A stretch of DNA of 40,491 nucleotides from a virus. Position 1 is the stretch's first letter. Each line of letters opens with the position of its first letter. The DNA lies in the IMG/VR virus record IMGVR_UViG_3300050821_023937, positions 1 to 40,491 of that record; one strand, given 5' to 3'. The notes under the pieces were generated by a model. It saw only the letters and a program-made list of their open reading frames with translations. It did not search any database and was not told where the DNA came from. The translations under genes were made by a program, and so were the position numbers. Of the stretch, positions 8,533 to 31,937 are shown piece after piece.

Positions 8533-8936
8533 TCGAGCCGCCGCCGCCCGCCGAGCTGGCCTTCCTGACCGATGCGATCGGCGCGCCGGCGACGCTGGCG
8601 CTGATCGAGGCGCGGGCGGGCACGCGGGTTTATGTGCCAACGCGGATCGACGCCGACGGGACGCTGGCGCAGGTGATCGGCGCGAAGGCCGCCGCGGCGC
8701 TGGCGGTGGCGCACGGTGGCTGCTACATCATGCCGCCGTCGGCGAAACGATGGCGCGCCGCGGTCTATCGCGCGCGGGGCCTGTCCAATGCGGAGATCGC
8801 ACGCACTCTCCGGTTGAACGAGCGGACGGTGGAGCGGTATTTCTCCACGTCGCTCGGGACGCACCGGCACGAGTGCCAGGCACCGCGACGGCGCCCCGAT
8901 CTCAAGCCGACCAAACAAACCGAACTGCCGATCTGA
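8529..8936 (+). CDS. mor: Mor/C-family middle/late transcription activator
   Basis: This 135-residue protein fits the Mor transcription-activator family of Mu. The N-terminal dimerisation part has LALIEARAGTRVYVPTRI (residues 23-40). GGCYIMPPSAKRWRAAVY follows, and then the C-terminal helix-turn-helix RGLSNAEIARTLRLNERTVE (about residues 83-102), with a basic tail. Mu uses two paralogues, Mor for the middle promoter and C for late promoters. Only one family member is seen here, so it may do the late-activation job. The palindromic repeat starting at 8932 includes its stop codon and lies between it and the endolysin gene, where a Plys-like late promoter would be expected. Confidence 0.85.
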   Translation: MIEPPPPAELAFLTDAIGAPATLALIEARAGTRVYVPTRIDADGTLAQVIGAKAAAALAVAHGGCYIMPPSAKRWRAAVYRARGLSNAEIARTLRLNERTVERYFSTSLGTHRHECQAPRRRPDLKPTKQTELPI

Positions 8937-8961
8937 TGCCGGTCGGCGCCGGCATGATCCG
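8932..8961 (+). promoter_or_regulatory. Candidate late activator site, copy 1 (R1)
   Basis: This is a 30-base sequence with the dyad ATGCCGG-N6-CCGGCAT (8936-8955). It recurs at 19479 and 31908 with one substitution among the copies. This copy overlaps the stop codon of the mor-like gene and precedes the endolysin. The N6-spaced dyad resembles in form the binding sites of the Mu C protein. A second stem, GCGCCGGC pairing with GCCGGCGC (8946-8968), can also form in this copy. No T-run follows, so an intrinsic terminator is unlikely. Regulatory function is inference from position and repetition. Confidence 0.55.
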
Positions 8962-8994
8962 CCGGCGCATCCGCTAGCACGCTGCCCCTTCAAG

Positions 8995-9020
8995 CCCGCG
9001 TCGCGATCTTCGCGCGCGGG
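8995..9020 (+). promoter_or_regulatory. Strong hairpin in leader of the lysis operon
   Basis: CCCGCG (8995-9000) pairs with CGCGGG (9015-9020), and inside it CGCG (9002-9005) pairs with CGCG (9011-9014), with one bulged T and a five-base loop. It ends about ten bases before the GGAGGGG ribosome-binding site of the endolysin. It could affect translation or mRNA stability of the lysis genes; there is no T-tract for an intrinsic terminator. Confidence 0.4.
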
Positions 9021-9038
9021 TGTCCTGCCGGAGGGGCA

Positions 9039-9605
9039 ATGACCCGGTTCGATGATTGTCTGGCGTTCACCTGGCGACCGGAGAACGACGGGCAGGCGTT
9101 CCACAACGAAGCGAACGATCCCGGCGGGGCGACCGCATGGGGTGTGACGTTCAGCACCTTCCGCTCGTGGCGGCTGATGCGCGGGATGCCGGACCCGTCG
9201 CTGTCGGTGTTCATCGGCGTCGATATCCACGAATTGCGCAGTCTGTACCAGACGCTGTTCTGGAACACGGTGCAGGGCGACGCGCTGCCACCCGGCGTCG
9301 ATCTATGCGTGTTCGACTTCGCGGTGCTGTCCAATTGCGTGCGCGCCGCGCAGTTCCTGCAGCGCTGCCTTGGTGTCGCGGAGGACGGCCATATCGGGCC
9401 GATCACGCTGCACGCGGCCAGCGCCGCGGTGCCCGGCGCGCTGATGCAGGCGCTGACCACGCGCGACGAAGCCTTCTACGCGAGCCTGTCGACATTCCGG
9501 ATCTTCGGACGCGGCTGGGATCGCCGCGCCGAGGACCGGCTGCGGCTCGCGCTGACGATGACCGGCGCGCCCGCGCTGGGCAGTGCAACAACGGAGACTG
9601 TGTGA
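9039..9605 (+). CDS. Endolysin, GH108-type muramidase with peptidoglycan-binding region
   Basis: The 188-residue protein is a phage lysozyme of the glycoside hydrolase 108 type that cuts the peptidoglycan glycan strand. The N-terminal part has a family-like catalytic region. FTWRPENDGQAFHNE contains the Glu (residue 15) expected to act as the acid, and it runs into the conserved NDPGGATAWGVT (about residues 26-37). A C-terminal peptidoglycan-binding domain of the PG_binding_3 kind is visible in VFDFAVLSNCVRAAQFLQRC and GVAEDGHIGPIT. There is no signal peptide, so a holin or other export route is needed. ATG 9039 has GGAGGGG at 9030-9036. It is the first gene after copy R1 of the repeat. Confidence 0.88.
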   Translation: MTRFDDCLAFTWRPENDGQAFHNEANDPGGATAWGVTFSTFRSWRLMRGMPDPSLSVFIGVDIHELRSLYQTLFWNTVQGDALPPGVDLCVFDFAVLSNCVRAAQFLQRCLGVAEDGHIGPITLHAASAAVPGALMQALTTRDEAFYASLSTFRIFGRGWDRRAEDRLRLALTMTGAPALGSATTETV

Positions 9606-9606
9606 C

Positions 9607-10170
9607 ATGGACTTGCTGTCGATGATTCAGGCGATCCCGGGCATCGGCCCGTATCTGCCTTACGTGCTGATGCTATTCGGGGTGTGCGCGGTGATTGCCG
9701 CACAGCTTCCGGCGCCGAGATCATCAGGCGTCTACTCGATGATCTATGGCATCGTGAACCTGCTGGGGCACAACTACAATCAGGCGAGAAACGCACTCGC
9801 TCCGGCCGCGAAGGCGCCGGCGCCGCCCGCTGCGGTGCTTGTGCTGGCCTACGCCCTGACGATGTCGTTGATGGCGTGCTCGAACACCGGCAGTCCATCG
9901 GCCGATACCGCCGCGCTGGAGGCTGGCCTGACCGCGGCCGAGGGCGTCGCGACCGCGTATGTGCAGCTTCCGCTGTGCACCGGCAGCAACGGACCGTTGT
10001 GCTCCGACGCCACGATCGTTGCGCAGATCAAGAACGCTGACGCGAAAGCCTACGCGCTGGTGAAGGCGGCCGAGAACGCGGCGGGCGATCCGTCCGCGCT
10101 ATCCGCCGCGGAGCTCGCTATCACGGCGCTGACCACCATCACCGCCAATCTGCCGAAAAAGGGGAGCTGA
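9607..10170 (+). CDS. Lysis-region membrane protein with internal lipobox
   Basis: The 187-residue product has an N-terminal hydrophobic region (residues about 14-36, IGPYLPYVLMLFGVCAVIAA), a Pro/Ala linker, and a second hydrophobic segment that ends in a lipobox-like LMAC followed by SNTG (about residues 84-103). After that comes a soluble Ala-rich domain with two cysteines (PLCTGSNGPLC). The first part looks like a small holin or membrane anchor. The second, if it started internally, would look like an outer-membrane lipoprotein. It is just downstream of the endolysin, so a holin or spanin-like role is plausible but unproven. Confidence 0.65.
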   Translation: MDLLSMIQAIPGIGPYLPYVLMLFGVCAVIAAQLPAPRSSGVYSMIYGIVNLLGHNYNQARNALAPAAKAPAPPAAVLVLAYALTMSLMACSNTGSPSADTAALEAGLTAAEGVATAYVQLPLCTGSNGPLCSDATIVAQIKNADAKAYALVKAAENAAGDPSALSAAELAITALTTITANLPKKGS

Positions 10171-10173
10171 CCG

Positions 10174-10371
10174 ATGCCGATCGCGCTCATTACCGCACTG
10201 ATCCAACTTGTTCAGATGGGGATCACCGTCGCGCCGCAGATCATCAGCGCGGCGCAAACCGCCGTGTCGCTGATCGAGGGTGGCGCGGCGCCGACTGCCG
10301 CGCAGCAGGCGGAGATCGATGCCGCGCTGGATACCGCGCACGCGGCGCTGCAGGCCGCCACGCCGGCCTGA
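10174..10371 (+). CDS. Small hydrophobic lysis-region protein
   Basis: The 65-residue protein has an N-terminal hydrophobic half (MPIALITALIQLVQMGITVA) and an Ala-rich amphipathic C-terminus. It starts three bases after the stop of the preceding gene, behind AAAGGGGAGC, a good ribosome-binding site. It could be membrane-associated. No family is recognised. Confidence 0.58.
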   Translation: MPIALITALIQLVQMGITVAPQIISAAQTAVSLIEGGAAPTAAQQAEIDAALDTAHAALQAATPA

Positions 10372-10374
10372 TCG

Positions 10375-10587
10375 ATGGACGATGCCGACCTCGCGGGGGA
10401 ACAGACCGACCGGCTGCTGTCGGCCGCTACCGCCGCGGCGTCGGCCAGTCTGCGCGGGTCGAGCGGCATCAGTCCGTTCTGCCTGGGTTGCGACGTCGAG
10501 ATCCCGGAGGGGCGGCGGCGTGCGCTGCCGGGGGCCACGCTCTGCATCGAATGCCAGTTGATCATTGAGGAGACGATATTCCGATGA
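10375..10587 (+). CDS. DksA/TraR-type C4 zinc-finger protein
   Basis: The 70-residue protein has the TraR/DksA short form: an N-terminal helix and a C4 zinc finger with CLGC (about residues 36-39) and CIEC (about residues 57-60), separated by EIPEGRRRALPGATL. The segment between the cysteine pairs matches the family's I-P-x-x-R-x-x-x-x-P-G pattern. Family members bind the secondary channel of RNA polymerase and change promoter choice. Small homologues are common just before the packaging genes of Mu-like phages. It overlaps the DUF2730 gene by ATGA (10584-10587). Confidence 0.85.
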   Translation: MDDADLAGEQTDRLLSAATAAASASLRGSSGISPFCLGCDVEIPEGRRRALPGATLCIECQLIIEETIFR

Positions 10588-10937
10588 TCGACTGGATGAC
10601 GGTGTCCACCGCCGCGATGGCCGCAGTTACCGTGGGCGGCGTGGTGATTGGCGTCGCGCAACGGATGATCCGTCACACGCTGCGTGCTTCCTTCGCAACG
10701 ATCGACCAGGTGGTGATGGTGGCGGGAAGGCTGGACGCCGTGGAGCGGCGCATCGAGCAGATGCCGAATTCCCAGAGCATCCAGGGCTTCGGCGTGCGGT
10801 TGGGCGGCGTCGAGCAGAACGTTGCGGTGGCGCGCGAGACGATCTCCGGCGTCAAGGAAGGGCTGTCTCGGGTCGAGCACATGATGGGGTTGCTGCTGGA
10901 GGCCGAGTTGCGGAAAGAGGAAGGGGCGAAATCATGA
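10584..10937 (+). CDS. DUF2730-family membrane/coiled-coil protein
   Basis: The 117-residue protein has one N-terminal transmembrane segment (about residues 4-24, WMTVSTAAMAAVTVGGVVIG) followed by an amphipathic coiled-coil with repeated Val/Leu and charged residues (DAVERRIEQMP, GVEQNVAVARETI). This layout is that of DUF2730 proteins near Mu gp25. A lysis-related or membrane-bound role has been suggested for such genes; it is not shown here. It overlaps the next gene by ATGA (10934). Confidence 0.8.
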   Translation: MIDWMTVSTAAMAAVTVGGVVIGVAQRMIRHTLRASFATIDQVVMVAGRLDAVERRIEQMPNSQSIQGFGVRLGGVEQNVAVARETISGVKEGLSRVEHMMGLLLEAELRKEEGAKS

Positions 10938-11236
10938 GCCTGGCGGCCGTGCTGGCGGAAGATCAGCGCCTGGTGATCCTGCGGACGCTGTCCGAGGTTC
11001 AAGGCTACGCGCTGAACGAACAGGTGCTGCACCGCGCATTGTCCGCCGTCGGCCACAACATCACGCACGACGTGGTGCGCGGCCATCTGCAATTCCTGAA
11101 GGACGCCGGCCTGGTGCGCACCGATGTTATGTCGATGCAGTCCGGGGATCTATGGGTGGCGCACCTGATGGTGCGCGGCCAGGACGTGGCGACCGGCGCG
11201 CATTACCCGGGCGTGGCCAGACTGCCGGCGGAGTAG
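10934..11236 (+). CDS. Mu gp26-like (VpaChn25_0724 family) protein
   Basis: This 100-residue protein has the winged-helix-like pattern of the Mu gp26 group: AEDQRLVILRTLSEVQGYAL (residues 8-27), LNEQVLHRALSAVGHNITHD, then VRGHLQFLKDAGLV and a hairpin ending in GDLWVAHL. It lies between the DUF2730 gene and the small-terminase-like DUF3486 gene, the standard Mu order. The family's biochemical role is unknown. DNA binding in packaging is a reasonable guess from the fold. Confidence 0.82.
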   Translation: MSLAAVLAEDQRLVILRTLSEVQGYALNEQVLHRALSAVGHNITHDVVRGHLQFLKDAGLVRTDVMSMQSGDLWVAHLMVRGQDVATGAHYPGVARLPAE

Positions 11237-11240
11237 GCCG

Positions 11241-11825
11241 ATGGCCCGGCCTTCCACCATCGATCAGTTGCCCGAGGAGATCCGCAGCGAGATCGGCCGG
11301 CTGCGGCTGCAAGGCTGCACCATCGATCAGATCCTGGCGCATCTGCGGACGCTGCATGGCGACACGAGCGCGCCGAGCCGGTCCGCGCTGGGGCGGCACA
11401 TCAAGGGACTGGAGGTTGTCGCCGAGCGCGTGCGCCGCTCCCGCGCGGTGGCCGAGGCGCTAGTCAACCAGATGGGCGACGCGCCGGAAAGCCAGGCGGC
11501 GCGCGTGAACATCGAGCTGATGCACACCGTGGTGATGGATCTATTCACCAACGCGGCCGATGGTGCGCAAGTCGCCGAGGACGGCAAAGCCGCGCTGGCG
11601 GGCAGCCCCGAGGGGGTGATGTTCCTGGCGAAGTCGCTGGACCACCTGGCGCGGGCGAGCAAGACGAACATCGACTTCATTGCGGCGGCGGAGAAGCGGG
11701 CTGCCGAGCGGGCGAAGCGCGACGCGGTGACCGCCGTAGAAGCGGTGGGCCGTGAGAAGGGACTGAGCGCCGACACGCTGAACGCGATCAAGGCGGGGAT
11801 CTTCGGCGTGAGGACCGCGGCGTGA
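11241..11825 (+). CDS. DUF3486 (Mu gp27-like) probable small terminase
   Basis: The 194-residue protein matches DUF3486. STIDQLPEEIRSEIGRLRLQ (residues 5-24) contains the family's LPEEIR motif. It continues with an HTH-like part (GCTIDQILAHLR), SRSALGRHIKGLE and long helices to the end, and GLSADTLNAIKAGIFGV is the typical C-terminal motif. In Mu-like phages this is the gene before the large terminase and is thought to be the small subunit that recognises packaging DNA. It starts five bases after the gp26-like gene; the next gene overlaps its end by four bases. Confidence 0.86.
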   Translation: MARPSTIDQLPEEIRSEIGRLRLQGCTIDQILAHLRTLHGDTSAPSRSALGRHIKGLEVVAERVRRSRAVAEALVNQMGDAPESQAARVNIELMHTVVMDLFTNAADGAQVAEDGKAALAGSPEGVMFLAKSLDHLARASKTNIDFIAAAEKRAAERAKRDAVTAVEAVGREKGLSADTLNAIKAGIFGVRTAA

Positions 11826-12055
11826 GCGCGGCCCAAGACAGCGTCCTGGCCACGCGCATCAAAGCGGTGACCGCCTCGACCGCTCTGACTGACACGATCG
11901 AGATGTTGCGCGCCGCTGGCGTCATGGACGCGGCGATCCTGAATGCGCTCGCCGGCGTGTGCGGCGCCCTGATCGGGAAGATTGCGCAGCCGGAATTCGA
12001 ACGGCGACTTGCCGCTGATTTCGCGCAGCGAGTGCGCGGGGCGATCCGGCGATGA
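11822..12055 (+). CDS. Small helical protein between terminase genes
   Basis: The 77-residue product begins on a GTG overlapping the DUF3486 stop (GTGA) and ends on an ATGA overlap with the next gene. It is predicted wholly helical (IKAVTASTALTDTIEMLRAA, VMDAAILNALAGVCGALIG). No family is recognised. Tight overlaps and good codon use support it as real. Confidence 0.62.
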   Translation: MSAAQDSVLATRIKAVTASTALTDTIEMLRAAGVMDAAILNALAGVCGALIGKIAQPEFERRLAADFAQRVRGAIRR

Positions 12056-12519
12056 GCCTGGAACGTGTCCTGGCCGTCTACGACGGCAGCGATGGCGATG
12101 CGACGATGGCGCTCTACGCTGACCTGGCGCAGTTCGGTGCGCTCGGCAACATTGCGATCAACCTGTTCCGAGCACAGAAGAATAGCTCTCGCGCGAAGGT
12201 CTATCGTGGCCGCGGCTATCGCGATGCCGCTTACGACCGCAAGCAGTGGGCGATGGACAATCTCGTCACATCCCTGTTTGCCAGTGCCCCCGACCTCTCG
12301 ATGCGGTGGGGCTGGGGAACCGATCCGACGCAGTCGGTGCACAACGCCGTATTGTATGTCGATCTGCCCACCGGCCAGGTCAGCTTCCACACCGGGCTTC
12401 GAGGCATCGGGCCGGACTATCCTGGCGAATGGGATGGCCGTGTCGGGCAGTCGCCGGACCGGATCATTCGGTTCGTGGTGCGGGTGCTGGCAAGCGGCGA
12501 GGTTGCTGATGCCGCTTGA
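12052..12519 (+). CDS. Conserved prophage protein of unknown function
   Basis: This 155-residue protein has a distinctive C-terminal half: VHNAVLYVDLPTGQVSFHTG followed by RGIGPDYPGEWDGR and IRFVVRVL. The pattern, a beta sheet with GxVSFH and GPxYxGEWDG, is familiar from proteins placed beside terminases in alphaproteobacterial prophages. Its function is not known. A short N-terminal helix (LADLAQFGALGNIAINLFRA-like) precedes it. The large terminase starts 11 bases before its stop. Confidence 0.65.
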   Translation: MSLERVLAVYDGSDGDATMALYADLAQFGALGNIAINLFRAQKNSSRAKVYRGRGYRDAAYDRKQWAMDNLVTSLFASAPDLSMRWGWGTDPTQSVHNAVLYVDLPTGQVSFHTGLRGIGPDYPGEWDGRVGQSPDRIIRFVVRVLASGEVADAA

Positions 12520-14098
12520 CGCTCTGCCCGACGTTTTCCTGCCGTATCAGCAGGAGCTGGTGACTTCGGTCAGCCACAACGCGGTGACCGCCGTCGAGAA
12601 GTCGCGCCGCACCGGCTACACCTGGACCGTCGCTGAAGTCGCCGTCGAGCACGCCGCATTGAAGAAGTCCGCCGGCGGCATGAACGTTTATTACATGGGC
12701 TACAACTTCGACATGGCCCGCGAGTTCATCGGCTACGTCGCCGAATGGGCCGGCGTGTTCCAACGCGGCGCCAGCGCGGTCGAAGAGTTCGTCTTTCCCG
12801 ACCCGGATCATCCCGAGCGCGACATCAAGGCATTCCGGGTCACCTTCGACAGCGGCTTCGAAGTGGTGGCGCTGCCGTCCGTAGCACGCGTGCTGCGCGG
12901 CAAGCAGGGCCTGGTGATCCTGGACGAGGCCGCCTTCATCGACGATCTGGACGAGGTGCTGAAGGCCGCGCTCGCGCTGCTGATGTGGGGCGGCAAGGTG
13001 GTGGTGATCTCCACCCACAACGGCGAAACAAACCCGTTCAACGTCCTGATCAACGATATCCGCGCCGGCAAGCGGCCATTCCACCTGCTGCGCCTGACGT
13101 TCGATGACGCGCTGGCGCAGGGGCTGTTCAAGCGCATGTGCCTGACCAAGCGCGACACCTGGTCGGCGGAGAAGGAAGCCGCGTTCCGCCAAAGCATCCT
13201 GGATTCCTACGGCGACAGCGCGGACGAAGAGCTGCACGTCATTCCGAACCCGTCCAGCGGCAGCTACCTGCCGGCGCCACTGATCGAGGCGCGGATGCGC
13301 GATGGCATCCCTGTGCTGAGGCTGGAGCGCGACACCACCTTCACGATGTGGCCGGAGTACATGCGCCAGGCCGACATCAAGCAGTGGATCGTGGAGAACC
13401 TCGACCCGGTGCTGGCCACGCTGGACCTGACGCTGGCCTACTGTTTCGGGTTCGACTTCGCGCGCAAGGTCGACCTGTCGGTGTTCATGCCGGCGGCGAT
13501 CCTGAAGAACCTGGTGCGCCGCGTGCCGTTCCTGCTGGAAATGCGCAACGTGCCGTTCGCGCAGCAGCGCCAGGTGCTGTGGCACATCCTCGAATTCGTG
13601 CGGCTGTGGCGGGCCGGCAAGATGGACGCCGGCGGCAACGGCGCGCAGATCGCCGAGGAAACCGTGCAGCGGTTCGGCGCATGGATCGAAGCCGTGATGC
13701 TGAACGAGCCGTGGTATCGCGACAATATGCCGCCCTACAAAGCGGCCTTCGAAGACGCGACGATTGAGCTGCCGCGCGACAGCGAAGTGCTGGACGATCA
13801 TCGGGCGGTCAAGGTGGTGCGCGGTGTCGGCCGCGTGGTGGAACACACCAAGGCGGAGGACGGCAAGAAGCGGCACGGCGACGCGGCGATCGCCGGCGTC
13901 CTGATGTATGCCGCCAGCCGCGCCGACCCGGAGTTCTACGGCTACGAAGCCGCCAGCACGCGGGCGGAGGCGTCGGGCAGTACCGGTACCGGCTGGCGCG
14001 ATCGGGCGGACACCTGGGCCGAGGATCATCCGATGCCCGGGCGCGGCATCATGCCGGGACTGCGCGGCGGGCTGATGCCGGCAGGGCGGCGCGTATGA
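12509..14098 (+). CDS. Large terminase subunit (Mu gp28-like)
   Basis: The 529-residue packaging motor has an ATPase and a nuclease half. ATG 12509 is chosen because it gives the conserved LPYQQELV start. The ATP-binding segment is EKSRRTGYTW (about residues 30-39), the altered P-loop of this family. Walker B is GLVILDEAAF (134-143), and STHNG (168-172) fits the coupling motif. The nuclease half holds a probable metal-binding Asp in FGFDFARKVDLS (D316) and a further acidic site in KMDAGGNG (D373). Later segments (HGDAAIA) match the family's last conserved motif. The length is normal. The gene follows gp27-like and overlaps the next gene by ATGA. Confidence 0.93.
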   Translation: MPLDALPDVFLPYQQELVTSVSHNAVTAVEKSRRTGYTWTVAEVAVEHAALKKSAGGMNVYYMGYNFDMAREFIGYVAEWAGVFQRGASAVEEFVFPDPDHPERDIKAFRVTFDSGFEVVALPSVARVLRGKQGLVILDEAAFIDDLDEVLKAALALLMWGGKVVVISTHNGETNPFNVLINDIRAGKRPFHLLRLTFDDALAQGLFKRMCLTKRDTWSAEKEAAFRQSILDSYGDSADEELHVIPNPSSGSYLPAPLIEARMRDGIPVLRLERDTTFTMWPEYMRQADIKQWIVENLDPVLATLDLTLAYCFGFDFARKVDLSVFMPAAILKNLVRRVPFLLEMRNVPFAQQRQVLWHILEFVRLWRAGKMDAGGNGAQIAEETVQRFGAWIEAVMLNEPWYRDNMPPYKAAFEDATIELPRDSEVLDDHRAVKVVRGVGRVVEHTKAEDGKKRHGDAAIAGVLMYAASRADPEFYGYEAASTRAEASGSTGTGWRDRADTWAEDHPMPGRGIMPGLRGGLMPAGRRV

Positions 14099-14394
14099 CC
14101 ATGTGGTGGATCGAGCAGGAGCGGACGCCGGAGGATGCCGAGCGCACCGCAATCGCGCTGGCGCCTAGCGTCCGCGAGCACATCAAGACGCTGCTGCAGC
14201 TTGACCTGTTGCAGAACGACCGCGACTTGATGGAAGCGCTGCTGCGCCGGCCGGACAATGAACTGACAGCGGAACGGCGGCGCTGGGTGCGCCAGGCGCT
14301 TTGGCGGCACCGGCGCAGGCTGCCACCTGATATCCGGCCGAAGGCGAACCCGGACGATCCAATCGTGCGTGAGCTGGAGGCCGCCGGTGTCTGA
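14095..14394 (+). CDS. Small basic protein between terminase and portal
   Basis: The 99-residue product is mainly helical, with a Trp/Arg-rich middle (RRRWVRQALWRHRRRLPPDI). It overlaps the terminase stop by ATGA and itself overlaps the portal start by eight bases. No family is recognised. Small genes of this kind sit between gp28 and gp29 in several Mu-like phages, so it is probably a packaging or connector accessory. Confidence 0.6.
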   Translation: MTMWWIEQERTPEDAERTAIALAPSVREHIKTLLQLDLLQNDRDLMEALLRRPDNELTAERRRWVRQALWRHRRRLPPDIRPKANPDDPIVRELEAAGV

Positions 14395-16593: not shown

Positions 16594-16597
16594 AATT

Positions 16598-16641
16598 GTT
16601 GTCAGCAACAGTTTAAGCGGTGCCCACCGACGCCGAAGCGA
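16598..16641 (+). repeat. Direct repeat arm 1 (split repeat)
   Basis: GTTGTC at 16598-16603 and, after 16 bases, GTGCCCACCGACGCCGAAGC and the next GA (16620-16641) recur at 16810-16815 and 16832-16853 with the same internal spacing, 212 bases apart. The central 16 bases have diverged. Each copy supplies a GTG start for the gene after it. It also contains the short inverted repeat TGTTG-TCAG-CAACA (16597-16610 region). Confidence 0.6.
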
Positions 16642-18141: not shown

Positions 18142-18198
18142 CGGCGTGCGGGCCGGCGACGACCAGCACGAGGTGAAGAGGATCGGAGTGCGGCGGAG

Positions 18199-19215
18199 AT
18201 GATTAACAAGCGCGATCGGATGTTGGGAACGATCTCGATCGGGAGCTCCAGCGGTTTGGAGATAGGTCCTCTCGCTTCGCCGTTGGTGGCGAAGTCGGAA
18301 GGCCGCGTGTTGTATGTCGACTATGCGACAACGGAGATCGTGCGGGCAAACCAGCGTGATCCCGCTTTCAACCTCGCGGATATTGTGGATGTGGATATCG
18401 TTTGGGGCGAGCGGCCTCTGAAGCAAGCGGTGGGCGGGACCGTAGATTACGTGGTGGCTAGCCACGTCATAGAACATGTTCCGGATCTGATCGGATGGCT
18501 TCGCGAGATTTACGATGTGCTCGCGCCCGGGGGGACACTCGGGCTTGTCATACCAGACCGGCGCTTCACGTTCGATCTCTGGCGCTACGAAAGCACCTTG
18601 GGCGAGATGGTAGAGGCATATCTGCTTCGTTACCGTCGTCCTTCGATCCGACATGCGTTCGATGCCTTCCACTTGTCCGCTGCCGTCGATACATCCGCAG
18701 CATGGCAATCCGATCTGCGGACGGCCGGCTTGCCGCACGACACCCGGGCTCGTCTGTCCGAAGCTTTTGCCGTGGCGAAGAGCCTGGTTGCGACACCGCG
18801 TTACGTGGATTTGCATTGCTGGGTGTTCACCCCGGCGACCTTCCTGGATACCGCCGAGGCCCTGCTCCGGCTCGACCTATTCCCGTTCTTGATCGACGGC
18901 TTCTTTCCGACCGAACCAGGGGAGCTTGACTTCCAGGTCAGGCTCATCGCCGTGGCGGAAAATCAGCAGGATGCCATCGCCGCATCAATCGCCGCAGCGC
19001 GACGAAATCTGGCGAACGCCAGCGCATGGCCGCTGGAGCGCTCTTGCGCTGCAACCTCCCCGACCCACCCGCCTGATCAACCAGATATCGGGCAAATTCA
19101 GAGCGAGATCGTCGAGTTGCGCCGTGCGCTTGAATCCATGCACAGGTCCACGTCCTGGCGTATCACCGCTCCGTTACGCGCCGCTGCTCGCCGGATCGGC
19201 TTGCTAATGCGATGA
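18199..19215 (+). CDS. Cargo SAM-dependent methyltransferase, surface-glycan type
   Basis: The 338-residue protein has the class I methyltransferase fold. LEIGPLASPL (residues 20-29) is motif I and VLYVDYATTE (37-46) carries the acidic ribose-binding Asp. ASHVIEHVPDLIGWL (87-101) is motif II/post-motif II and LAPGGTLGLVIPD (108-120) is motif III. Residues 120-260 are a cap-like region. The end, ESMHRSTSWRITAPLRAAAR, has the STSWRITAPLR motif found at the ends of many bacterial LPS/O-antigen glycosyltransferases and methyltransferases. That suggests it modifies a surface polysaccharide. It does not belong to the Mu gene plan and looks like a moron gene. Base use seems a little less GC-biased than its neighbours. 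ATG 18199 is a tentative start. Confidence 0.82.
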   Translation: MINKRDRMLGTISIGSSSGLEIGPLASPLVAKSEGRVLYVDYATTEIVRANQRDPAFNLADIVDVDIVWGERPLKQAVGGTVDYVVASHVIEHVPDLIGWLREIYDVLAPGGTLGLVIPDRRFTFDLWRYESTLGEMVEAYLLRYRRPSIRHAFDAFHLSAAVDTSAAWQSDLRTAGLPHDTRARLSEAFAVAKSLVATPRYVDLHCWVFTPATFLDTAEALLRLDLFPFLIDGFFPTEPGELDFQVRLIAVAENQQDAIAASIAAARRNLANASAWPLERSCAATSPTHPPDQPDIGQIQSEIVELRRALESMHRSTSWRITAPLRAAARRIGLLMR

Positions 19216-19537
19216 GCCGTTCCGGCCGCAGCGATCAGGTTGAAATCGCCCTGGCAGTGGACTGACCCGACGTGGCCCGCGCCGAAAATATCATCACCGA
19301 TCGGCCTGCCAGTTTAAGTAACCCATAAGAGCGCTAAGAGGCACCCTGTGCGCCTCGCAGCGGAAAATCCGCGCCTCTGTTGCTGAAAACGCCGCCCCGC
19401 CTGTCCGGGCTGGCAATCGCGCGCGCGTGCCTGTAGCGTTCGCGGGCGAGCGGGGTGCCGAGACCGCCCTCGCGCAGATCTGATGCCGGTGGGCGCCGGC
19501 ATGATCCGGCGCATGGGCGGTCGCCAGTCTCCGCGTC
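19216..19537 (+). other. Intergenic region with alternative hairpins and the PI-like site
   Basis: This is the largest non-coding gap in the window. GAGGC (19338-19342) can pair with GCCTC at 19352-19356 or at 19373-19377, giving mutually exclusive hairpins. The perfect GCGGA-AAA-TCCGC hairpin lies at 19360-19372. The end holds copy R2 of the palindromic repeat. No gene with a usual start codon is convincing here. It could hold the terminator of the cargo gene and the late promoter of the head genes, but no T-tract or clear -35/-10 pair is visible. Confidence 0.45.
19479..19508 (+). promoter_or_regulatory. Candidate late activator site, copy 2 (R2)
   Basis: This copy of the 30-base repeat has one substitution (G for C) in the spacer of the ATGCCGG-N6-CCGGCAT dyad. 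It lies 29 bases before the ATG of the protease/scaffold gene, matching the place of the Mu late promoter PI. An additional stem, GCGCCGG with CCGGCGC across 19492-19512, is possible. Unlike the other copies, it does not overlap the stop codon of a recognised gene, which argues that the repeat's conservation is not due to coding. Confidence 0.55.
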
Positions 19538-20569
19538 ATGTTGCTCGCCTCCTACCACACGACGCTGCCGACCGGCGCTGGCGTGCCCGAATGGGTGCAC
19601 CTGATGCCCGCGGGCACGTTCATGGGCGTCGACGGCCGCGGGCCGTTCCATCTGCGCGACGCCGAAGCGGTGATGCGCGCCTCGATGGCCAACGACAACA
19701 AGCTGGCGATCGACATCAACCACAGCATCGATCGGGCGACGCCGCGCGGCGATCCCAGCCCGGCGTTCGGCTGGATCGTCGAGATGCAGTCCCGCGCCGA
19801 TGGCATCTACGGCCGCGTCGAGTGGACGCCGGACGGCACCGAGTTGATGACCAAGAAGACTTATCGCGGTCTCAGCCCGGTCTTTGATCGCACCAAGGAT
19901 GGCACGGTCATCCGCGTGCTGCGCGCCGCGCTGACCAACAATCCGAACCTGGCCGGCCTGGCCACGCTTCACTCACAGCAGGACACCGACATGGATCTGA
20001 ACGCTTTGCGGCCGGTCCTCGGGCTGGCCGCCACGGCGGACGAGGCCGCGATCCTGGCCGCGATCACCGCGAACGCCACCGCAGTCAGCCTGCACACCGC
20101 GCAGATCGAGGCGATCCGCACCGCGGCTGCACTGCCGGTGACCCTGACCGTCGAGGGCATCGCCACCGAGCTGCAGACGCGCCGCGTCGCCGCCGGCAAC
20201 GCCGACCAGCTCGCCGAGAAGGTGCAGACACTGAGCACCGAGCTGGCGACGCTGCGCAACACCGGCGCGAAGGAACGCGCGACGATGTTCGTCGACAACG
20301 CGATCAAGGCCGGCAAGCCGATCGTGCCGCTGCGCGATCGTTACATCGAGATGCACGCCGCCAATGCCGCTGACACCGAGGCGCTGGTCAACGGGCTGCC
20401 GAGCATCAACACCGGAGGCGTGGTGTTGAACGCTGGAGGCGGCGCGGGCGATGGCGACGAGGCTACAGCCTCGGAGAAGATGGTCGCCGAGAAAACCGGC
20501 GTCGACGTCAAGAAACTCGTTGCCCAGCGCAAGAAGCGCGAAGGCGCCAGCAACGGAGGGATGGGCTGA
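19538..20569 (+). CDS. I: Head maturation protease/scaffold (Mu gpI-like)
   Basis: The 343-residue protein matches the Mu I protease family. The N-terminal protease part has VPEWVHLMPAGTFMGVDGRG, AVMRASMANDNKLAIDINHS (the conserved D-x-N/E-H-S-type core) and PAFGWIVEMQSRADGIYGRV. It continues with YRGLSPVFDRTKDG and ALTNNPNLAGLATLHSQ, the usual end of the protease domain. The C-terminal half (from about residue 152) is a helical scaffold rich in Ala, Glu and Gln. It would trim scaffold and capsid precursors in the prohead. It follows R2 directly. The next gene's ATG overlaps its TGA by one base. Confidence 0.9.
   Translation: MLLASYHTTLPTGAGVPEWVHLMPAGTFMGVDGRGPFHLRDAEAVMRASMANDNKLAIDINHSIDRATPRGDPSPAFGWIVEMQSRADGIYGRVEWTPDGTELMTKKTYRGLSPVFDRTKDGTVIRVLRAALTNNPNLAGLATLHSQQDTDMDLNALRPVLGLAATADEAAILAAITANATAVSLHTAQIEAIRTAAALPVTLTVEGIATELQTRRVAAGNADQLAEKVQTLSTELATLRNTGAKERATMFVDNAIKAGKPIVPLRDRYIEMHAANAADTEALVNGLPSINTGGVVLNAGGGAGDGDEATASEKMVAEKTGVDVKKLVAQRKKREGASNGGMG
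19991..20569 (+). CDS. Z: Possible internal-start scaffold protein (Mu Z-like)
   Basis: An in-frame ATG at 19991, seven bases after AGCAGGA (19977-19983), would give a 192-residue protein covering the scaffold half of the protease gene. It begins MDLNALRPVLGLAATADEAA, and the tail is helical. Mu makes a separate Z scaffold from inside gene I in just this manner. The site lies right at the protease-scaffold border, which supports it. Expression is inferred from the start signal and the Mu precedent. Confidence 0.5.
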   Translation: MDLNALRPVLGLAATADEAAILAAITANATAVSLHTAQIEAIRTAAALPVTLTVEGIATELQTRRVAAGNADQLAEKVQTLSTELATLRNTGAKERATMFVDNAIKAGKPIVPLRDRYIEMHAANAADTEALVNGLPSINTGGVVLNAGGGAGDGDEATASEKMVAEKTGVDVKKLVAQRKKREGASNGGMG

Positions 20570-22259: not shown

Positions 22260-22499
22260 GTGCTCGATCTGCACATCGTCTGCATGCGCCCCGGCGGCAT
22301 GAACCGTGGGGGCCGGCGCCACGATCGCCATGCCGTCCATTCTCTGGCCGACTTCACCCCCGCGCAGTTGCGCGAGATGCTGGCGGAGCCGGACCTGGTG
22401 CTGCTTGGTGGCGTCGTGCTCACCGAGGATTATATCGGGGAACTGGAGGCGGAGGCACAGACGAAGGCCGGAGCCAAGGCCGCTAAGGCCAAGGGCTGA
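22260..22499 (+). CDS. Mu gp35-like small protein (HI1506-related)
   Basis: The 79-residue product starts at GTG 22260, eight bases after AAGGAGAG. It has MRPGGMNRGGRRHDRHAVHS, then LADFTPAQLREMLAEPDLVL and a charged Ala/Lys-rich tail. The R-x-G-G/H motif followed by D-F-T-x-x-Q-L-x-x-x-L-x-x-x-P-x-L is the HI1506-like pattern of proteins between capsid and gp36 in Mu-like phages. Function is unknown, probably head assembly. The tail is low complexity. Confidence 0.65.
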   Translation: MLDLHIVCMRPGGMNRGGRRHDRHAVHSLADFTPAQLREMLAEPDLVLLGGVVLTEDYIGELEAEAQTKAGAKAAKAKG

Positions 22500-22505
22500 C
22501 GATGC

Positions 22506-23736: not shown

Positions 23737-23739
23737 TCA

Positions 23740-25266: not shown

Positions 25267-25273
25267 GGCCGAC

Positions 25274-26373: not shown

Positions 26374-26501
26374 TGCTCGCCTCGATCGGCGGTCATTTCC
26401 ACTTCACGGCCACTGAACTTGAGGGCCTGACCGCGGCCCGCGCGCTGTTCTGGCTCGATGCGCTGAAGCAGTGGCGCGAGGCAACGACCCAGAAGGGATA
26501 G
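25675..26501 (+). CDS. Predicted -1 frameshift chaperone fusion (gp41')
   Basis: The slippery run T-TTT-TTG at 26337-26343 (inside seven Ts, 26336-26342) would move ribosomes to the -1 frame. From 26343 that frame reads VHEWPPNWKVMLASIGG, then HFHFTATELEGLTAARALFW, DALKQWREATTQKG, and stops with TAG at 26499-26501. The extension continues for about 52 residues and ends three bases before the tape-measure ATG. Long tail phages, including Mu, make such G/GT-type chaperone pairs by frameshifting, so the slip is expected. The heptamer and the fully open extension are visible; the frequency is unknown. Confidence 0.78.
26336..26343 (+). other. Programmed -1 ribosomal frameshift site
   Basis: Seven Ts followed by G give the slippery heptamer T-TTT-TTG in the reading frame of the gp41-like gene (codons CTT-TTT-TTG). 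The -1 frame stays open for about 52 codons to 26501. The zero frame ends at 26373. No clear pseudoknot was worked out. Confidence 0.75.
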
Positions 26502-26503
26502 AG

Positions 26504-28717
26504 ATGGCCGCGAGTGCCGCCATGAAGGCGTCCCTGGTTCTCAACTTCGAGGACAAGCTGACCGGCGGCTTGGATAAGCTGGAAAAGCAGCTCGACCAGC
26601 TCAAGCAGCTCGGCAAGGAACTGAGCCTCGGCAAGCTGGAGACCGGCGCCGAGGGCATCCAGCGCACGATCTCCGCGACGCGGGATCTCGCCGGCGGCCT
26701 GGATAGTGTCGGCAACGCTGCGCGGGAAGCCGAGGCGAAGTTCAAGCACATGCTGGACGGCATCGCGGGCGCGCAGAAGCGCTTGTCGGTCAGTTCCGTT
26801 CTGGGCGGACGCACCCGCGAATTCGGTGCGATGGATGCTCGAGCCCTGTGGGGCGGTGCGCAGGTCGCGCGTCCGGCAGGGGGCGGCGGTACCGGCGGGA
26901 TGGGCGGCATGATGGCCGACATCGGCGCCATGGGTGCCGGCTACGGCATCGTGGAAGCAACCCGGGCATATGGCAGCTTCGAGGACATCGCGCGGCGGGC
27001 CGGGATCACCAAGGGACTGAGTGGTGCGGCGCTGACTGCTGATACCCAACGGCTGATGACGCTGTTCGGCCGTGATGCATTGGCGACCGCGCAAAGCGGC
27101 ACGAACATCGGCGAAGCGTATCTCGACCTGGCCGGCATGGGGATTGCGCCGGCCGAGGTGGAACGGCTGCTGCCGATCCACTCTCGCGTGGCGACTGCCT
27201 ACAACATCAGTCCCGAAGTACTGAGCCCGGCGACGGCCGCGCTCAATCAGAGCTTCAGGATCGACGATACCGACATGGGCGGTGCGCTGGCGGCGATGGC
27301 GACGGCCACCAAGGAAGGCCGCTTCAAGATCGAGGACTTCGCCCGTTTCCTGCCGAGCATCGGCGGCAACATGGCGAAGCTGGGAATGACCGGCCGCGGC
27401 TCGGCGGATTTCGCGTTCGCCGCGCTCGAAACAGTGATGAGGAACTCGGCCGATCCCGGCTCCGGCGCGGCGAACTTCACCGACTTCGTGAACTATCTGA
27501 CCTCCCCGATGGCAGCGCGCAGCTTCGGATTGAGCAGCCGTGGGATGGCCGCGCCGACCAAACGAATGCTGGAACAATATCACGTCACCGGCATCGACAT
27601 GCCCAAGCTGCTGGAGAACGCGCGGCTGCAAGGCGTGGATCCAATCACCGCGGTGCTCGGCACGCTGCAGAAGAAGCTGGCCGGGCTGCCGCCGGATGTG
27701 ATGGCGCAGATCCTGGGTGCGTTCTTCCACAATCAGCAGGCCCGCGATGCGGCGCTCGCGCTGCTGCAACACCCGGGCGACTTTCTGTCGATGCAGAAGC
27801 AGCTCGCCGGCGTGAACGGCGGCACGCTCGACAAGGACTTCCAGTCGCGCATGGAAGGCGCGGCGGTGCAGACGAAGTTGCTGGACGAGGAGCTGGCGCA
27901 GCTCAATCGGCGCCTCGGGCAAGGCTTCTTGCCCGTCGTGCACACCGCGAATGCCGCGCTCGCAGATCTCGGCGAAGCCGTCCGCTGGCTTGACGATAAG
28001 GTGCCAGGTCTCGGCGACGACGTGCTGGTGGTGGGTGGCGCAGTCGCCGGCTTCAGCGGGGCGGCTGGCGCATTGAACCTGGTGCTACCGATCATCGGCG
28101 CGGGACTACGGACGTTCCTGATCGGGCCGCTGCGGCTGGTGGGAAGCGCGTTGCTCGCGGTCACCATCGGCGCCGACGGCTCGGCTGCGGCGATCGGGAC
28201 GCGACTGGTGTCGGCGCTCGACAGCGCCTCCGCCGCGATGACCAGGTTCAATAATCTGACGCTGGCCAATCCGCTTTTCCGCACTGCGGCCTTCGCGGTG
28301 TGGCTCTTCAATGATCTGAAAGGGAAAATGGGCAGCGCTAGCGATGTGAGGATCGACGACAAGACCCCGCAGCAGCTCCGCGCGCTGGGCATCACGCCAG
28401 GCCTGGAACGGATGAACCAAGAAGACGTTGAGCACCACGGTCCCGGGCCTTGGGGCGCGCATACGAACCTTCTGGTTCCGCCGCCGATCAACGCGCCACC
28501 GGGCGCATCCGACGACAGTGGGCGGATGACGCACGAAGAAGGCGCCGGTGATGTCGCGGTACCTGTGCCGTCCGCCGCCCCGGCGGGCAGGGTCGATGTT
28601 TATGTCTGGGCCGATCCGAATGGCGTCCCCATCATCGTGCGCACGGACGGCACCGGGGTAAACCTTCCGCAAGGCGGCGGCGCACCCGATCCCGGCAAGA
28701 CACTGGGCCGCCCGTGA
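26504..28717 (+). CDS. Tail tape measure protein
   Basis: The 737-residue protein sets the tail length. ATG 26504 is chosen because AAGGG lies six bases upstream and because the frameshift extension ends directly before it. The N-terminus is coiled coil (about residues 12-70, LEKQLDQLKQLGKELSLGKL). Then comes the TP901-type tape measure region (GFEDIARRAGITKGL-like, GEAYLDLAGMGIAPAEVERL, MATATKEGRFKIEDFARFLP). A membrane-like hydrophobic part lies near residues 505-560 (VLVVGGAVAGFSGAAGALNL, VGSALLAVTIG). The C-terminus is low complexity and Pro/Gly-rich. It overlaps the next gene by GTGA. Confidence 0.9.
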   Translation: MAASAAMKASLVLNFEDKLTGGLDKLEKQLDQLKQLGKELSLGKLETGAEGIQRTISATRDLAGGLDSVGNAAREAEAKFKHMLDGIAGAQKRLSVSSVLGGRTREFGAMDARALWGGAQVARPAGGGGTGGMGGMMADIGAMGAGYGIVEATRAYGSFEDIARRAGITKGLSGAALTADTQRLMTLFGRDALATAQSGTNIGEAYLDLAGMGIAPAEVERLLPIHSRVATAYNISPEVLSPATAALNQSFRIDDTDMGGALAAMATATKEGRFKIEDFARFLPSIGGNMAKLGMTGRGSADFAFAALETVMRNSADPGSGAANFTDFVNYLTSPMAARSFGLSSRGMAAPTKRMLEQYHVTGIDMPKLLENARLQGVDPITAVLGTLQKKLAGLPPDVMAQILGAFFHNQQARDAALALLQHPGDFLSMQKQLAGVNGGTLDKDFQSRMEGAAVQTKLLDEELAQLNRRLGQGFLPVVHTANAALADLGEAVRWLDDKVPGLGDDVLVVGGAVAGFSGAAGALNLVLPIIGAGLRTFLIGPLRLVGSALLAVTIGADGSAAAIGTRLVSALDSASAAMTRFNNLTLANPLFRTAAFAVWLFNDLKGKMGSASDVRIDDKTPQQLRALGITPGLERMNQEDVEHHGPGPWGAHTNLLVPPPINAPPGASDDSGRMTHEEGAGDVAVPVPSAAPAGRVDVYVWADPNGVPIIVRTDGTGVNLPQGGGAPDPGKTLGRP

Positions 28718-30018
28718 GCGTCACGATCAACACACTCGCGTCGGACATCACGACGCTCTACCAGCAGGCGCTGCTGAACGCGTCCTATGGCGGCGTCGGT
28801 TTCTTTGTTGTCGACGGTAGCGACGAAGGCGGCCGACGGCTGCTGCGTTTCCTGTTCCCCGGCCAGGATGCGGCGGCGTTCCAGGATCTCGGCCAGATGG
28901 ATGGCGAGATCGAGATCAAGGGCGTCCTGGTCGGCGATGACTTCGTCGCGCAGGCCCAGCGCATGCGAGGCGTCTTCTACACGCCAGGCCCGCAAACGCT
29001 GACGCATCCGTGGCTCGGCGAGATCCAGGTTGTCCCGGCGCCGGGCAAGCTACCGAAGTTCAACTTCAGTCAGGACGAAATCCGCATCGCGCGGTTCACC
29101 CTGACCGTGCTGCGCTGGACGCCGGCGCAGCCGCCGGCGCTCAACACACTCAATGCGATCCTGTTCGCGATCGAGGACGCGCAGCTCGCCGTCAATCAGT
29201 TCCTTGCATCTGTCCTGGCGCCAGTCGTGTTGACGCTGGCGGCGATCGGCTACGTGCAGGGCTTCGTCAACCTGCTGGCAACCGAATGGACGGTGCTGAC
29301 CGGCAGCGCCAAGGATGCCGCGGTCGCGCCGGCCGCCGTCGCGCCGATCGCCGCGATGGGCACTGTCGCAACGGTGACCGTCGATGCCAACTATGGAACG
29401 AACGTCGCCGGCCTGCTCGGCGGCGTGCCCGCGGCGATCGCCGGCACGTCGACGCCGATCGTCCCGGCCGCGGTGGCGCCAGGCGGCAGCACCGTGACGC
29501 CGGTTGCTGTGGATCCGCGTGTAACAGCAACCGCCATCTTGCAGGCACTGCCGACGATGGCGGCGGCTGCCTCGGCCGCGGCGCCCGGACCGGCGCTGTC
29601 GCTTGCCGCGCAATCTCTGGCGCTGTCCTATGCAGTGTCGGCAGCTAGCAACATCACCTTCACCAGCCAGCAGGAAGCCCGCGCTTGGTTCAACCAGCTC
29701 GCCACCGCACTGTCCGCCACGGCAGCGCTGGCGGCCTCCCAGGTGCCGGCGCAGGCGACAGCGGCCGGCACGCTGTGGCGCGCCCTGGTAGCGTTGCAGG
29801 CGGCGCTAGCGGCCGACATGAACGCGACGATCGGCCGGCTGCCCGCGGTGGAAACGCTGACGCTGACGTCGCCGGTGTCCGCGTGGCTGATCGCGCAGTA
29901 TCTGGCCGGTGATACGCCCGGCCTGGTGCTGGCGACGTATCTCGACCTGGTGCAGCGCAACGACATCATCAATCCGGCGATCCCGGCGCCAGGCCCGCTT
30001 GAGGTGCTTGTGCAATGA
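28714..30018 (+). CDS. N: DNA circularisation protein-like baseplate/tail protein (Mu gpN-like)
   Basis: This 434-residue protein has the DNA circulation N-terminal domain of Mu gpN: LYQQALLNASYGGVGFFVVD, RRLLRFLFPGQDAAAFQDLG, GDDFVAQAQRMRGVFYTPGP and TLTHPWLGEIQVVPAP, in the family's order. Residues from about 140 on are Ala-rich and helical (VLALAAIGYVQGFVN-like). The protein is part of the tail or baseplate and is delivered with the DNA. Start is GTG 28714 overlapping the tape measure stop; its own stop overlaps the next ATG (ATGA at 30015). Confidence 0.88.
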   Translation: MSVTINTLASDITTLYQQALLNASYGGVGFFVVDGSDEGGRRLLRFLFPGQDAAAFQDLGQMDGEIEIKGVLVGDDFVAQAQRMRGVFYTPGPQTLTHPWLGEIQVVPAPGKLPKFNFSQDEIRIARFTLTVLRWTPAQPPALNTLNAILFAIEDAQLAVNQFLASVLAPVVLTLAAIGYVQGFVNLLATEWTVLTGSAKDAAVAPAAVAPIAAMGTVATVTVDANYGTNVAGLLGGVPAAIAGTSTPIVPAAVAPGGSTVTPVAVDPRVTATAILQALPTMAAAASAAAPGPALSLAAQSLALSYAVSAASNITFTSQQEARAWFNQLATALSATAALAASQVPAQATAAGTLWRALVALQAALAADMNATIGRLPAVETLTLTSPVSAWLIAQYLAGDTPGLVLATYLDLVQRNDIINPAIPAPGPLEVLVQ

Positions 30019-31367
30019 GCGGCGGCATCGTTGCACCCGCGGGATCTCCGCTCGCGAATGCCCTGGACGCCAGCCCGGGCAGCTCGGTTTCCGCCGGGGG
30101 CGTGACCTATGGGCCCCAGTTCCTTGGTGGCAAACCGGTCACCAACCGCGTGACGCTGACCGTCGGCGGCTACGCGTTCACCAACATCGTGCGCATGCGC
30201 ATCGAGCGCGATCTGCAGAACATCGCCGGCAGCTTCGAGATCGAGATCATGGACCAGGCGCGCCTGGCGCATGCGCTGCCGGTGCAGATCGGCAACACGC
30301 CACCGCTGCCGATCGTGCTGAAGGCCGGGCAAGCGGTCACACTGGCGATCGACAACGAGCCGGTGCTGGTGGGCTGGATCGGCAAGCCCAGCGGTCGATG
30401 GCGCGCCGACACAATCCGAATGAGCATCGCCGGACGCGACAAGACGGGCGACCTGGTGGAGTGCTCGGCACTTCCGAAAGGGCCTGCGGAATACAGGGGC
30501 GTCGACATGCTGCATGTCGCGCAGGCTGAGTGCGCGCCCTTCGGCATCACCGTGCGTGCCGACGTCGATATCGGCGCCCCTTTCGATCGATTGTCCCGCC
30601 ACCCGCATGAAACCGTGCTGGCGTTCCTGGAGAAGGCGGCGCGGCAGCGCGCGATCCTGTTGGTCAGCGATGGCATTGGCGGCCTGTTGCTGACCCGCGG
30701 CGGCAGCAGCCGCGCGCCCGATGACCTTGTCGTCGGCGGCAACGTGCAGGAAGCACAGTGGGAAGACGATTGGGACCGGCGCTTCAGCGACTACTACGTG
30801 AAGGGCCAGACCGATCAGCACCGGCAGCGCGCCGGCAAACCGGTCGCGCTGGATAGCACGGTCGAACCGCTGACCGGCGACCCGGAGCCGGCGACCGAGC
30901 CCGGACCCGCGTCCGTGACTGAATCAACCAGCATCCTCATGACCGGGCACGCGATCGATCCGGAGATCACCCGCTACCGTCCCACGGTGCGCTTAACGCG
31001 CTCTCAGAGCGGTATGAGCACCACGCAAGAGCAGGCTGAGTGGATGCTGCGCGTCGCGCGTGGGCAGGCCGAGCGGCTGCGCTACACCGTGCTGGACTGG
31101 CGCGCCGGCGCCAACAAGGTGCTGTGGCGGCCCAACCAGGTCGCCTATGTCTACGACCCGTTCGCCGAGCGCGCGAAGGATATGCTGATCGCCGGCGTCA
31201 CTTACCTATTCGACGCCGATGGCGCGCGCACCGAGCTGCGCGTGGTGGGCATCACCGCCTACGATCGGATCAACGAGGCGGATCGCAAGCGCGGGTCGAA
31301 GCCCAAGGGCAAAGCTGCGCCCGCGGCGCCCCTCGACAGCACCGTCCAGCCGTTGACGGCGCAGTAG
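30015..31367 (+). CDS. P: Baseplate hub protein (Mu gpP/gp44-like)
   Basis: The 450-residue protein matches Mu gp44, the hub of the baseplate, which resembles T4 gp27. It opens with a low-complexity leader and then NRVTLTVGGYAFTNIVRMRI, DLQNIAGSFEIEIMDQA and DNEPVLVGWIGKPSGRW. The inserted domain carries DKTGDLVECSALPKG and AQAECAPFGITVRADVDIG. The end holds GQAERLRYTVLDWRAGANKV and FAERAKDMLIAGVTYLFDAD, typical of late control D / gp44. Residues 1-35 look poorly conserved, so a later start is possible. Confidence 0.9.
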   Translation: MSGGIVAPAGSPLANALDASPGSSVSAGGVTYGPQFLGGKPVTNRVTLTVGGYAFTNIVRMRIERDLQNIAGSFEIEIMDQARLAHALPVQIGNTPPLPIVLKAGQAVTLAIDNEPVLVGWIGKPSGRWRADTIRMSIAGRDKTGDLVECSALPKGPAEYRGVDMLHVAQAECAPFGITVRADVDIGAPFDRLSRHPHETVLAFLEKAARQRAILLVSDGIGGLLLTRGGSSRAPDDLVVGGNVQEAQWEDDWDRRFSDYYVKGQTDQHRQRAGKPVALDSTVEPLTGDPEPATEPGPASVTESTSILMTGHAIDPEITRYRPTVRLTRSQSGMSTTQEQAEWMLRVARGQAERLRYTVLDWRAGANKVLWRPNQVAYVYDPFAERAKDMLIAGVTYLFDADGARTELRVVGITAYDRINEADRKRGSKPKGKAAPAAPLDSTVQPLTAQ

Positions 31368-31375
31368 CCCAGCGC

Positions 31376-31912
31376 ATGGACGAGCTGGCCTACGGCCTGC
31401 GCGTGAACGTGCACCTCGGCATCGTTGAATCAATCAACGATGGCGGCCAGGCGCAGACGGCCACGGTCACGTCGCATGACGGCTTCCCGCGCGCCGATCT
31501 GGAGATAATGCAGCCGTTCGGCTTGGCCAGCCTGCCGCCTGGCGACGGCGCGATCGCGATGATGCTGTCGGTCGGCGGCGATGCGGGGCACTTCGTGCTG
31601 CTGCCGCTGTGCTGCCCGTCGGTGCGCTTCGGCAACCTGCTCGCCGGCGAGAGCGTGCTGTACGGCGCGGACGGATCGCGCGTGCATATCCGCCAAGGCG
31701 GCACGATCGAGGCCAAGGCCGCGACGTCCATCCTGGCGCAGGTCGGCACCAACAGCGTGACGATCTCGCAGACCGATATCGTGCTGGCTGTCGGCGGCGT
31801 CAGCATCACCGTCTCCGCAGCGGGCGTGGCGATCGTCGGCACCCTGACAACCCAGAACATCGTGACGGACGGCAACATCACCGCGACCGGCAACATCACG
31901 GCGCACGTCTGA
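31376..31912 (+). CDS. Baseplate spike protein (Mu gp45-like)
   Basis: The 178-residue protein fits the Mu gp45/baseplate V family, the membrane-piercing spike. It has an OB-like N-terminal half (LGIVESINDGGQAQTATVTS, DLEIMQPFGLASLPPGDGAI) and a C-terminal beta-helix of repeated short strands. That helix runs GADGSRVHIRQGGTIEAKAA, SVTISQTDIVLAVGGVSITV and ends TTQNIVTDGNITATGNITAH. These match the C-terminal needle of gp45. The stop lies inside copy R3 of the 30-base repeat. Confidence 0.9.
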   Translation: MDELAYGLRVNVHLGIVESINDGGQAQTATVTSHDGFPRADLEIMQPFGLASLPPGDGAIAMMLSVGGDAGHFVLLPLCCPSVRFGNLLAGESVLYGADGSRVHIRQGGTIEAKAATSILAQVGTNSVTISQTDIVLAVGGVSITVSAAGVAIVGTLTTQNIVTDGNITATGNITAHV

Positions 31913-31937
31913 TGCCGGTCGGCGCCGGCATGATCCG
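31908..31937 (+). promoter_or_regulatory. Candidate late activator site, copy 3 (R3)
   Basis: This is the third copy of the 30-base palindromic repeat. It overlaps the stop of the gp45-like gene and ends 29 bases before the ATG of the gp46-like gene. The ATGCCGG-N6-CCGGCAT dyad (31912-31931) is identical to copy R1. The flanks differ from the other copies, so the extra GC stem of R1 and R2 is not formed here. The place is slightly downstream of where Mu has PP. Activity is inferred. Confidence 0.5.

Follow-up and report, generated by a model that had tools for sequence, protein, structure and literature searches.

The window analysed here, the whole 40,491-nucleotide stretch of viral DNA in IMG/VR record IMGVR_UViG_3300050821_023937, carries one 20-bp dyad three times, which raises the question of what these copies do and which protein binds them. 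The dyad, ATGCCGG-N6-CCGGCAT, is free of mismatches at positions 8936–8955 (R1), 19483–19502 (R2) and 31912–31931 (R3), with centres at 8945/8946, 19492/19493 and 31921/31922, all on the + strand, and has no other perfect copy in the window. The block common to the three copies, TCTGATGCCGGT(C/G)GGCGCCGGCATGATCCG, spans approximately 30 nt with a single substitution, and the claim of an earlier sequence-only reading, that a 30-bp repeat occurs three times with one substitution in total and holds a 7-bp inverted repeat around a 6-bp spacer, was upheld. The 100 nt downstream of the mor-like gene gave a summed score of 60.5 for their two best recurrences, a value reached by none of 527 control windows of 100 nt from the same sequence (mean 27.2, maximum 41.5). 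A scan of the window allowing up to 4 arm mismatches revealed no convincing fourth site. The three dyads are very likely the operators of the lys (R1), protease (I; R2) and gp46 (R3) late promoters, under the control of a Mor/C-type activator; binding, activation and transcription start sites are inferred.

Genes adjoining the dyads

The dyads are surrounded by genes for a late activator (phrog_836), an endolysin, a Mu I protease, Gp45 and GP46, and the earlier gene calls were correct. R1 overlaps the TGA stop codon (8934–8936) of the Mor/C-type late activator gene (8529–8936, + strand), which encodes 135 amino acids from ATG 8529 and matches phrog_836 with an E value of 2.8e-21. The longer open reading frame (ORF), 8496–8936, is the only confident Mor/C-family ORF in the window (E value of 1e-43, against 0.005 for the next ORF). 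The first late gene after R1 encodes the endolysin (Glyco_hydro_108; 9039–9605, + strand). R2 is non-coding and lies inside a 322-nt gap between ORF 18199–19215 and the gene of the Mu I-type head maturation protease (19538–20569, + strand). R3 is located between gp45 and gp46, overlaps the TGA stop codon (31910–31912) of the gp45 gene and precedes the baseplate wedge gene gp46 (31967–32428, + strand), for which ATG 31967 is the likely start codon, rather than GTG 31958. Approximately 270 nt (19216–19482) are non-coding between R2 and the methyltransferase-like ORF (18199–19215) on the other side.

Several claims of the sequence-only reading are thereby settled. The first copy does follow the only Mor/C-family gene of the window, the copies do stand directly before the endolysin, protease and gp46 genes, and R2 does lie in non-coding DNA. 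The proposed closeness to the Mu promoters Plys, PI and PP held in part: the lys and I positions match, and R3 precedes gp46, which lies two genes after gp44 (the counterpart of Mu P), and not gene P. The correspondence of the gp46 site to PP is rough at best.

The Mor-like protein is assigned to the Mor/C family by its sequence match to phrog_836, which Mu Mor and Mu C match too; the Pfam Mor family matches 27 of 36 aligned relatives and not the window protein itself. The alignment of the family profile with Mu C and Mor is limited to the helix-turn-helix and C-terminal stretch. The protein comprises an N-terminal domain, a helix-turn-helix and a low-confidence flexible tail ending KQTELPI; in the structure model (pLDDT of 84.8) the folded part is confident and the tail is not, most of residues 108–118 falling below 50. 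Structure prediction from the single sequence was poor. A fold search of the PDB with the model gave no hit with E ≤ 0.001; the 50 listed matches were weak, mostly of helix-turn-helix type, and did not include Mor.

The arrangement resembles that of the Mu late promoters, where a small late activator gene lies directly before lys, the late units start at lys and I, the dyad is upstream of or overlaps the -35 element, and the -10 element is non-consensus. It differs in having one Mor/C gene, where Mu has two; in operators that are nearly identical, whereas those of Mu are too degenerate for the same recurrence test; in a third promoter that precedes gp46 rather than gene P, with no fourth site seen; and in transcription starts that, for I and gp46, are predicted to coincide with the ATG.

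Recurrence of the element in related phages

Three relatives with activators 70–73% identical to that of the window (L004, L005 and L006) each have a variant of the window dyad immediately behind the activator gene, at the position of R1 (ATGCTAGTCGGCGCCAGCAT, ATGCTGGTCGGCGCCGGCAT and ATGCCGGTGGGCGCCGGCAT). In more distant phages this position is occupied by dyads of quite different sequence, with copies that agree within each phage; the dyads include ACGCCCC-GATATC-GGGGCGT (G006), GGCCGCA-NN-TGCGGCC (G021), CTCCCCGCGCGGGGAG (G025), GTGCTGAAATCCTTCAGC (G020) and CCTGTTATCTGACAG (G024). As relatives use other sequences, the exact dyad with its flanks was found in no other IMG/VR contig; a megablast of window bases 1–25000 against known phages gave no match.

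Genomes of alphaproteobacteria and viral contigs were surveyed; in Mu-like alphaproteobacterial (pro)phages, a further copy of the post-mor element precedes the head protease gene and, where R3 is within reach, gp46 as well. The recurrence test was applied to loci with at least 9 kb downstream, and its threshold was passed by 29 of 83 survey loci compared with 18 of 425 random windows (4%). In a comparison independent of this threshold, 38 of 68 pairs of post-mor and pre-protease regions from the same phage scored at least 12, as did 1.2% of swapped pairs, and the own pair ranked first in 38 of 68. The recurrence test fails in G004, G007–G010, G012, G013, G019, G023, Aussie, StopSmel, RS1, MweYong and Mu C. 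In many relatives, as in Mu, this approach detects no clear recurrence, so their operators are degenerate or lie elsewhere. G001, G002 and G005 are short records with a single site each. A few dyad centres were corrected by hand; the spacing analysis excludes L238, L239, L275, L276 and some others (recurrences resembling other repeats, or unclear centres), and manual exclusion for unclear dyad centres or duplication removed 12 phages from the spacing analysis and 16 from those of the lys -10 and of covariation.

RcapMu of Rhodobacter capsulatus is similar to the window in having a Mor/C-type gene before the endolysin gene, and its activator has the tail DQLPLFPDD. Its post-activator region (L091, 13945–14040) recurs just before the protease gene (22356–22438) with a score of 33.5, and the two-hit sum is reached by none of 511 control windows. 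Unlike the window, RcapMu has no clear dyad centre by automatic search and only one strong recurrence. The post-mor elements of L246 and L249 recur strongly in a longer, different form (for example, GCGGAAAACCGGTTCCCACTTTTCC), perhaps representing another operator class.

Short palindromic repeats of the REP type are common in bacteria, and the recurrence might be due to chance or to such a mobile repeat falling between genes. Against this, the same gene positions are occupied in phages with unrelated dyad sequences, each phage usually has two or three copies in a single orientation, and own pairs match far better than swapped ones. Because the gene positions are conserved, a dispersed non-regulatory repeat is very unlikely. 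Copies at random places in related phages would have refuted the proposed regulon; this was checked, and the dyads lie instead after mor, before the protease gene and before gp46. The repeats and their positions are shown by this comparison.

The same comparison shows that the operators covary with the activator. Among 28 phages, those with more similar recognition helices also tend to have more similar dyad arms when the N-terminal domain is controlled for (partial r of 0.25 for 5-bp and 0.32 for 7-bp arms, p of about 0.001 or less). The covariation is modest and the phages are related, and it constitutes support for binding by the Mor-like protein, not proof. That this protein binds a GC-rich operator, as previously proposed, is supported only indirectly, by gene adjacency and by this covariation. 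The dyads could alternatively be operators of another protein, such as a phage repressor or a host factor, controlling the late operons: dimeric repressors bind dyads too, and there are no binding data for the Mor-like protein. This alternative is unlikely, given that the element follows the Mor/C-type gene in relatives, that its arms covary with the recognition helix of that protein, that it is centred like the activator site of Mu Pm, and that a poor -10 is typical of activator-dependent promoters. The core idea of a Mor-like regulon is supported and extended, the Mu Mor site matching in both centre spacing and N6 spacer. Since activator and operators change together between phages, each phage would possess a private late regulon.

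Architecture of the putative late promoters

The distal copies mostly adjoin protease or gp46 homologues, with a distance from dyad centre to ATG that is mostly 43–48 nt (mode of 45). ATGs for the -10 alignment were picked near 45 nt. When 34 sites were aligned on the ATG, the strongest columns were A at -12 (23 of 34) and T at -8 (25 of 34), accompanied by a weaker TGAC-like -35 and a C at -1; no Shine-Dalgarno-like motif was found in these 34 sites. The lys sites permit a test that is independent of the lys start codon: 26 of 30 phages have AnnnT no more than 2 nt away from the expected offset, compared with 4.2 expected and a maximum of 10 in 300 draws. Because many lys copies, that of the window included, have no ATG at this distance, the -10 does not merely reflect start-codon context. 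The consensus is a degenerate cAnnnT at fixed spacing from the dyad, which fits Mu-type activator-dependent promoters. Comparison thus shows the -10 element and its spacing, and resolves the earlier statement that no good -10 was present and that the promoter part of the proposal was weak.

The -10 elements of the window are CACGCT at 8978–8983 for the lys promoter (same offset in 26 of 30 related-phage R1 sites, with a predicted start at approximately 8991), CAGTCT at 19525–19530 for the I promoter (same sequence in G003, with a spacing of 44 instead of 45) and GACGGT at 31954–31959 for the gp46 promoter, all on the + strand; in a scan of the window, a -10 at the right offset from the three perfect dyads was found on this strand only. 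An alternating GCGCGCGCG tract occupies the region from dyad to -10 at the gp46 sites of the window (an alternating GC tract, 31944–31954, + strand), G003, G006, G021, G018 and G024, and is also present at the lys sites of L007, L008, L207 and L209. Its presence in several late promoters may affect DNA melting or twist, although this is no more than a possibility.

The typical distance of 45 nt from dyad centre to ATG and the absence of a Shine-Dalgarno sequence lead to the prediction, for which there are no transcript data, that the protease and gp46 late mRNAs are leaderless. In the window, the protease ATG (19538), which has no Shine-Dalgarno sequence, and the probable gp46 ATG (31967) both lie 45 nt from the dyad centre. 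If these transcripts start at the ATG, the dyad is centred at approximately -45.5, in line with the N6 dyad near -44 expected of Mu-type activator-dependent late promoters. At the Mu promoter Pm, Mor binds 5-bp inverted repeats separated by a hexanucleotide spacer and centred at -43.5, and replaces the missing -35 hexamer (PMC4390567). The promoters described here share the N6-spaced dyad (approximately -45.5 against -43.5), a -10 and the inferred replacement of the -35; they differ from Pm in sequence, in being several late promoters rather than one middle promoter, and in the partial TGAC-like -35 of many phages. The predicted lys leader contains a stable RNA hairpin before the Shine-Dalgarno sequence GGAGG (8994–9021, + strand; z of -2.9), with similar sequence in L004 and L006, and this hairpin might influence the timing of lysis.

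The dyads might themselves act not as DNA operators but as RNA hairpins at the 3' ends of upstream units, in end protection or termination: R1 and R3 overlap stop codons, and the element can fold (-13.6 kcal/mol). Such a role is unlikely because the spacing to the -10 is fixed and the fold is unexceptional (z of -1.7). Moreover, the distance to the next ATG is fixed as well, the window copies have no U tract, copies within a phage agree in base identity and not merely in pairing, and R2 lies approximately 270 nt beyond the preceding gene.

In the operator reading, which we favour, the Mor/C-type protein encoded just before R1 would activate the lys, I and gp46 late promoters. An activator dimer would bind both arms across the N6 spacer, centred near -45.5, and largely substitute for the -35 element, with host RNA polymerase using the degenerate -10 (cAnnnT). 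The protease and gp46 transcripts would start at the A of the ATG or an adjacent nucleotide, yielding leaderless mRNAs, and the lys transcript would have a leader of approximately 48 nt with the hairpin and the Shine-Dalgarno sequence.

C-terminal tail of the Mor/C-type proteins

Aligned relatives of the activator have Q-x-D-L-F or a similar sequence at the C-terminal end, after a variable linker. The pattern Qxx[LMI][FLI] is present in the last 25 residues of 49 of 86 non-redundant family proteins (shuffled mean of 2.8, maximum of 7) and in 38 of 2775 other ORFs; a strict form is present in 31 of the 86 (0.2 when shuffled) and in 5 of the 2775, and 27 of the 86 match neither broad pattern. 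The commonest tail residues spell QLDLF, which is the consensus published for ligands of the bacterial beta clamp; a six-residue form of it also exists (PMC11139829). Mu C ends HQPDLFSPETPK (motif HQPDLF) and Mu Mor ends QPSLL; the tails of gammaproteobacterial relatives include QRDLF, QRRLF, QPDLF, QFDMF and QMPLL. The tail of the window protein, QTELPI, is a weak, partial match to the clamp motif (Q-aliphatic-x-[L/M]-[F/L] or the six-residue form). At the N-terminal end, too, gammaproteobacterial C proteins have clamp-like sequences (MQHDLF in Mu C, L090 9963–10385, cf. L285 and L286; QDDLF in Pmp9; QSELF in HS6), and each may have two motifs.

Binding of the host beta sliding clamp by the QLDLF-like tail, which is common in the family, is inferred from sequence without binding data, and we consider that this inference could as readily prove wrong as right. 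Mu late genes are expressed once phage replication has begun (PMC4461284), and, as a looser proposal, a clamp-bound tail would favour late transcription on replicating phage DNA. A bolder reading, for which the balance is equally fine, is that Mor/C activators, Mu C included, are clamp-tethered, coupling late transcription of transposable phages to replication. In T4, late factors have C-terminal clamp-binding tails, that of gp55 on a flexible linker (PMC2988020, PMC7892883). By analogy, and with doubt and belief again evenly matched, the T4 principle may have arisen a second time, by a separate route that combines a site-specific activator with the clamp of the host. The likeness to T4 late transcription (gp55, gp33 and the gp45 sliding clamp) is one of idea only, namely a late transcription factor that reaches the clamp through a flexibly linked C-terminal tail; in T4 a sigma-like factor and a coactivator work with the phage's own clamp, whereas a site-specific DNA-binding activator and the host clamp would be used here, if the reading is correct, which has not been demonstrated.

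Alternatively, the tail may be an RNA polymerase contact or a stability tag, a reading that we regard as somewhat less likely than not. In its favour, Mu C acts through RNA polymerase beta' (PMC4461284), the QTELPI of the window deviates from the motif, gammaproteobacterial members often lack an aliphatic residue at position 2, and there are no DnaN binding data here for any family member. Against it, the preferences Q-L-D/S-L/M-F, together with QLSLPF, QLTLNF and QLKLPL, fit both clamp motif classes (PMC11139829), and the tail is predicted to be flexible.

No prior description of the operator pairs or of the clamp-like tail was found in the open-access literature searched, most of the subscription literature lying outside the search. 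With the operator placed after the activator gene and repeated at the late promoters, activator–operator pairs are readable from sequence in many such phages. These pairs open the DNA-recognition code of the Mor/C family to study and are candidate orthogonal activator–promoter pairs. The predicted leaderless mRNAs of structural genes constitute a testable prediction, and RcapMu is a published, cultivable test system. The clamp-like tail of Mu C allows a simple test, in E. coli, of a physical link between late transcription and replication in Mu.
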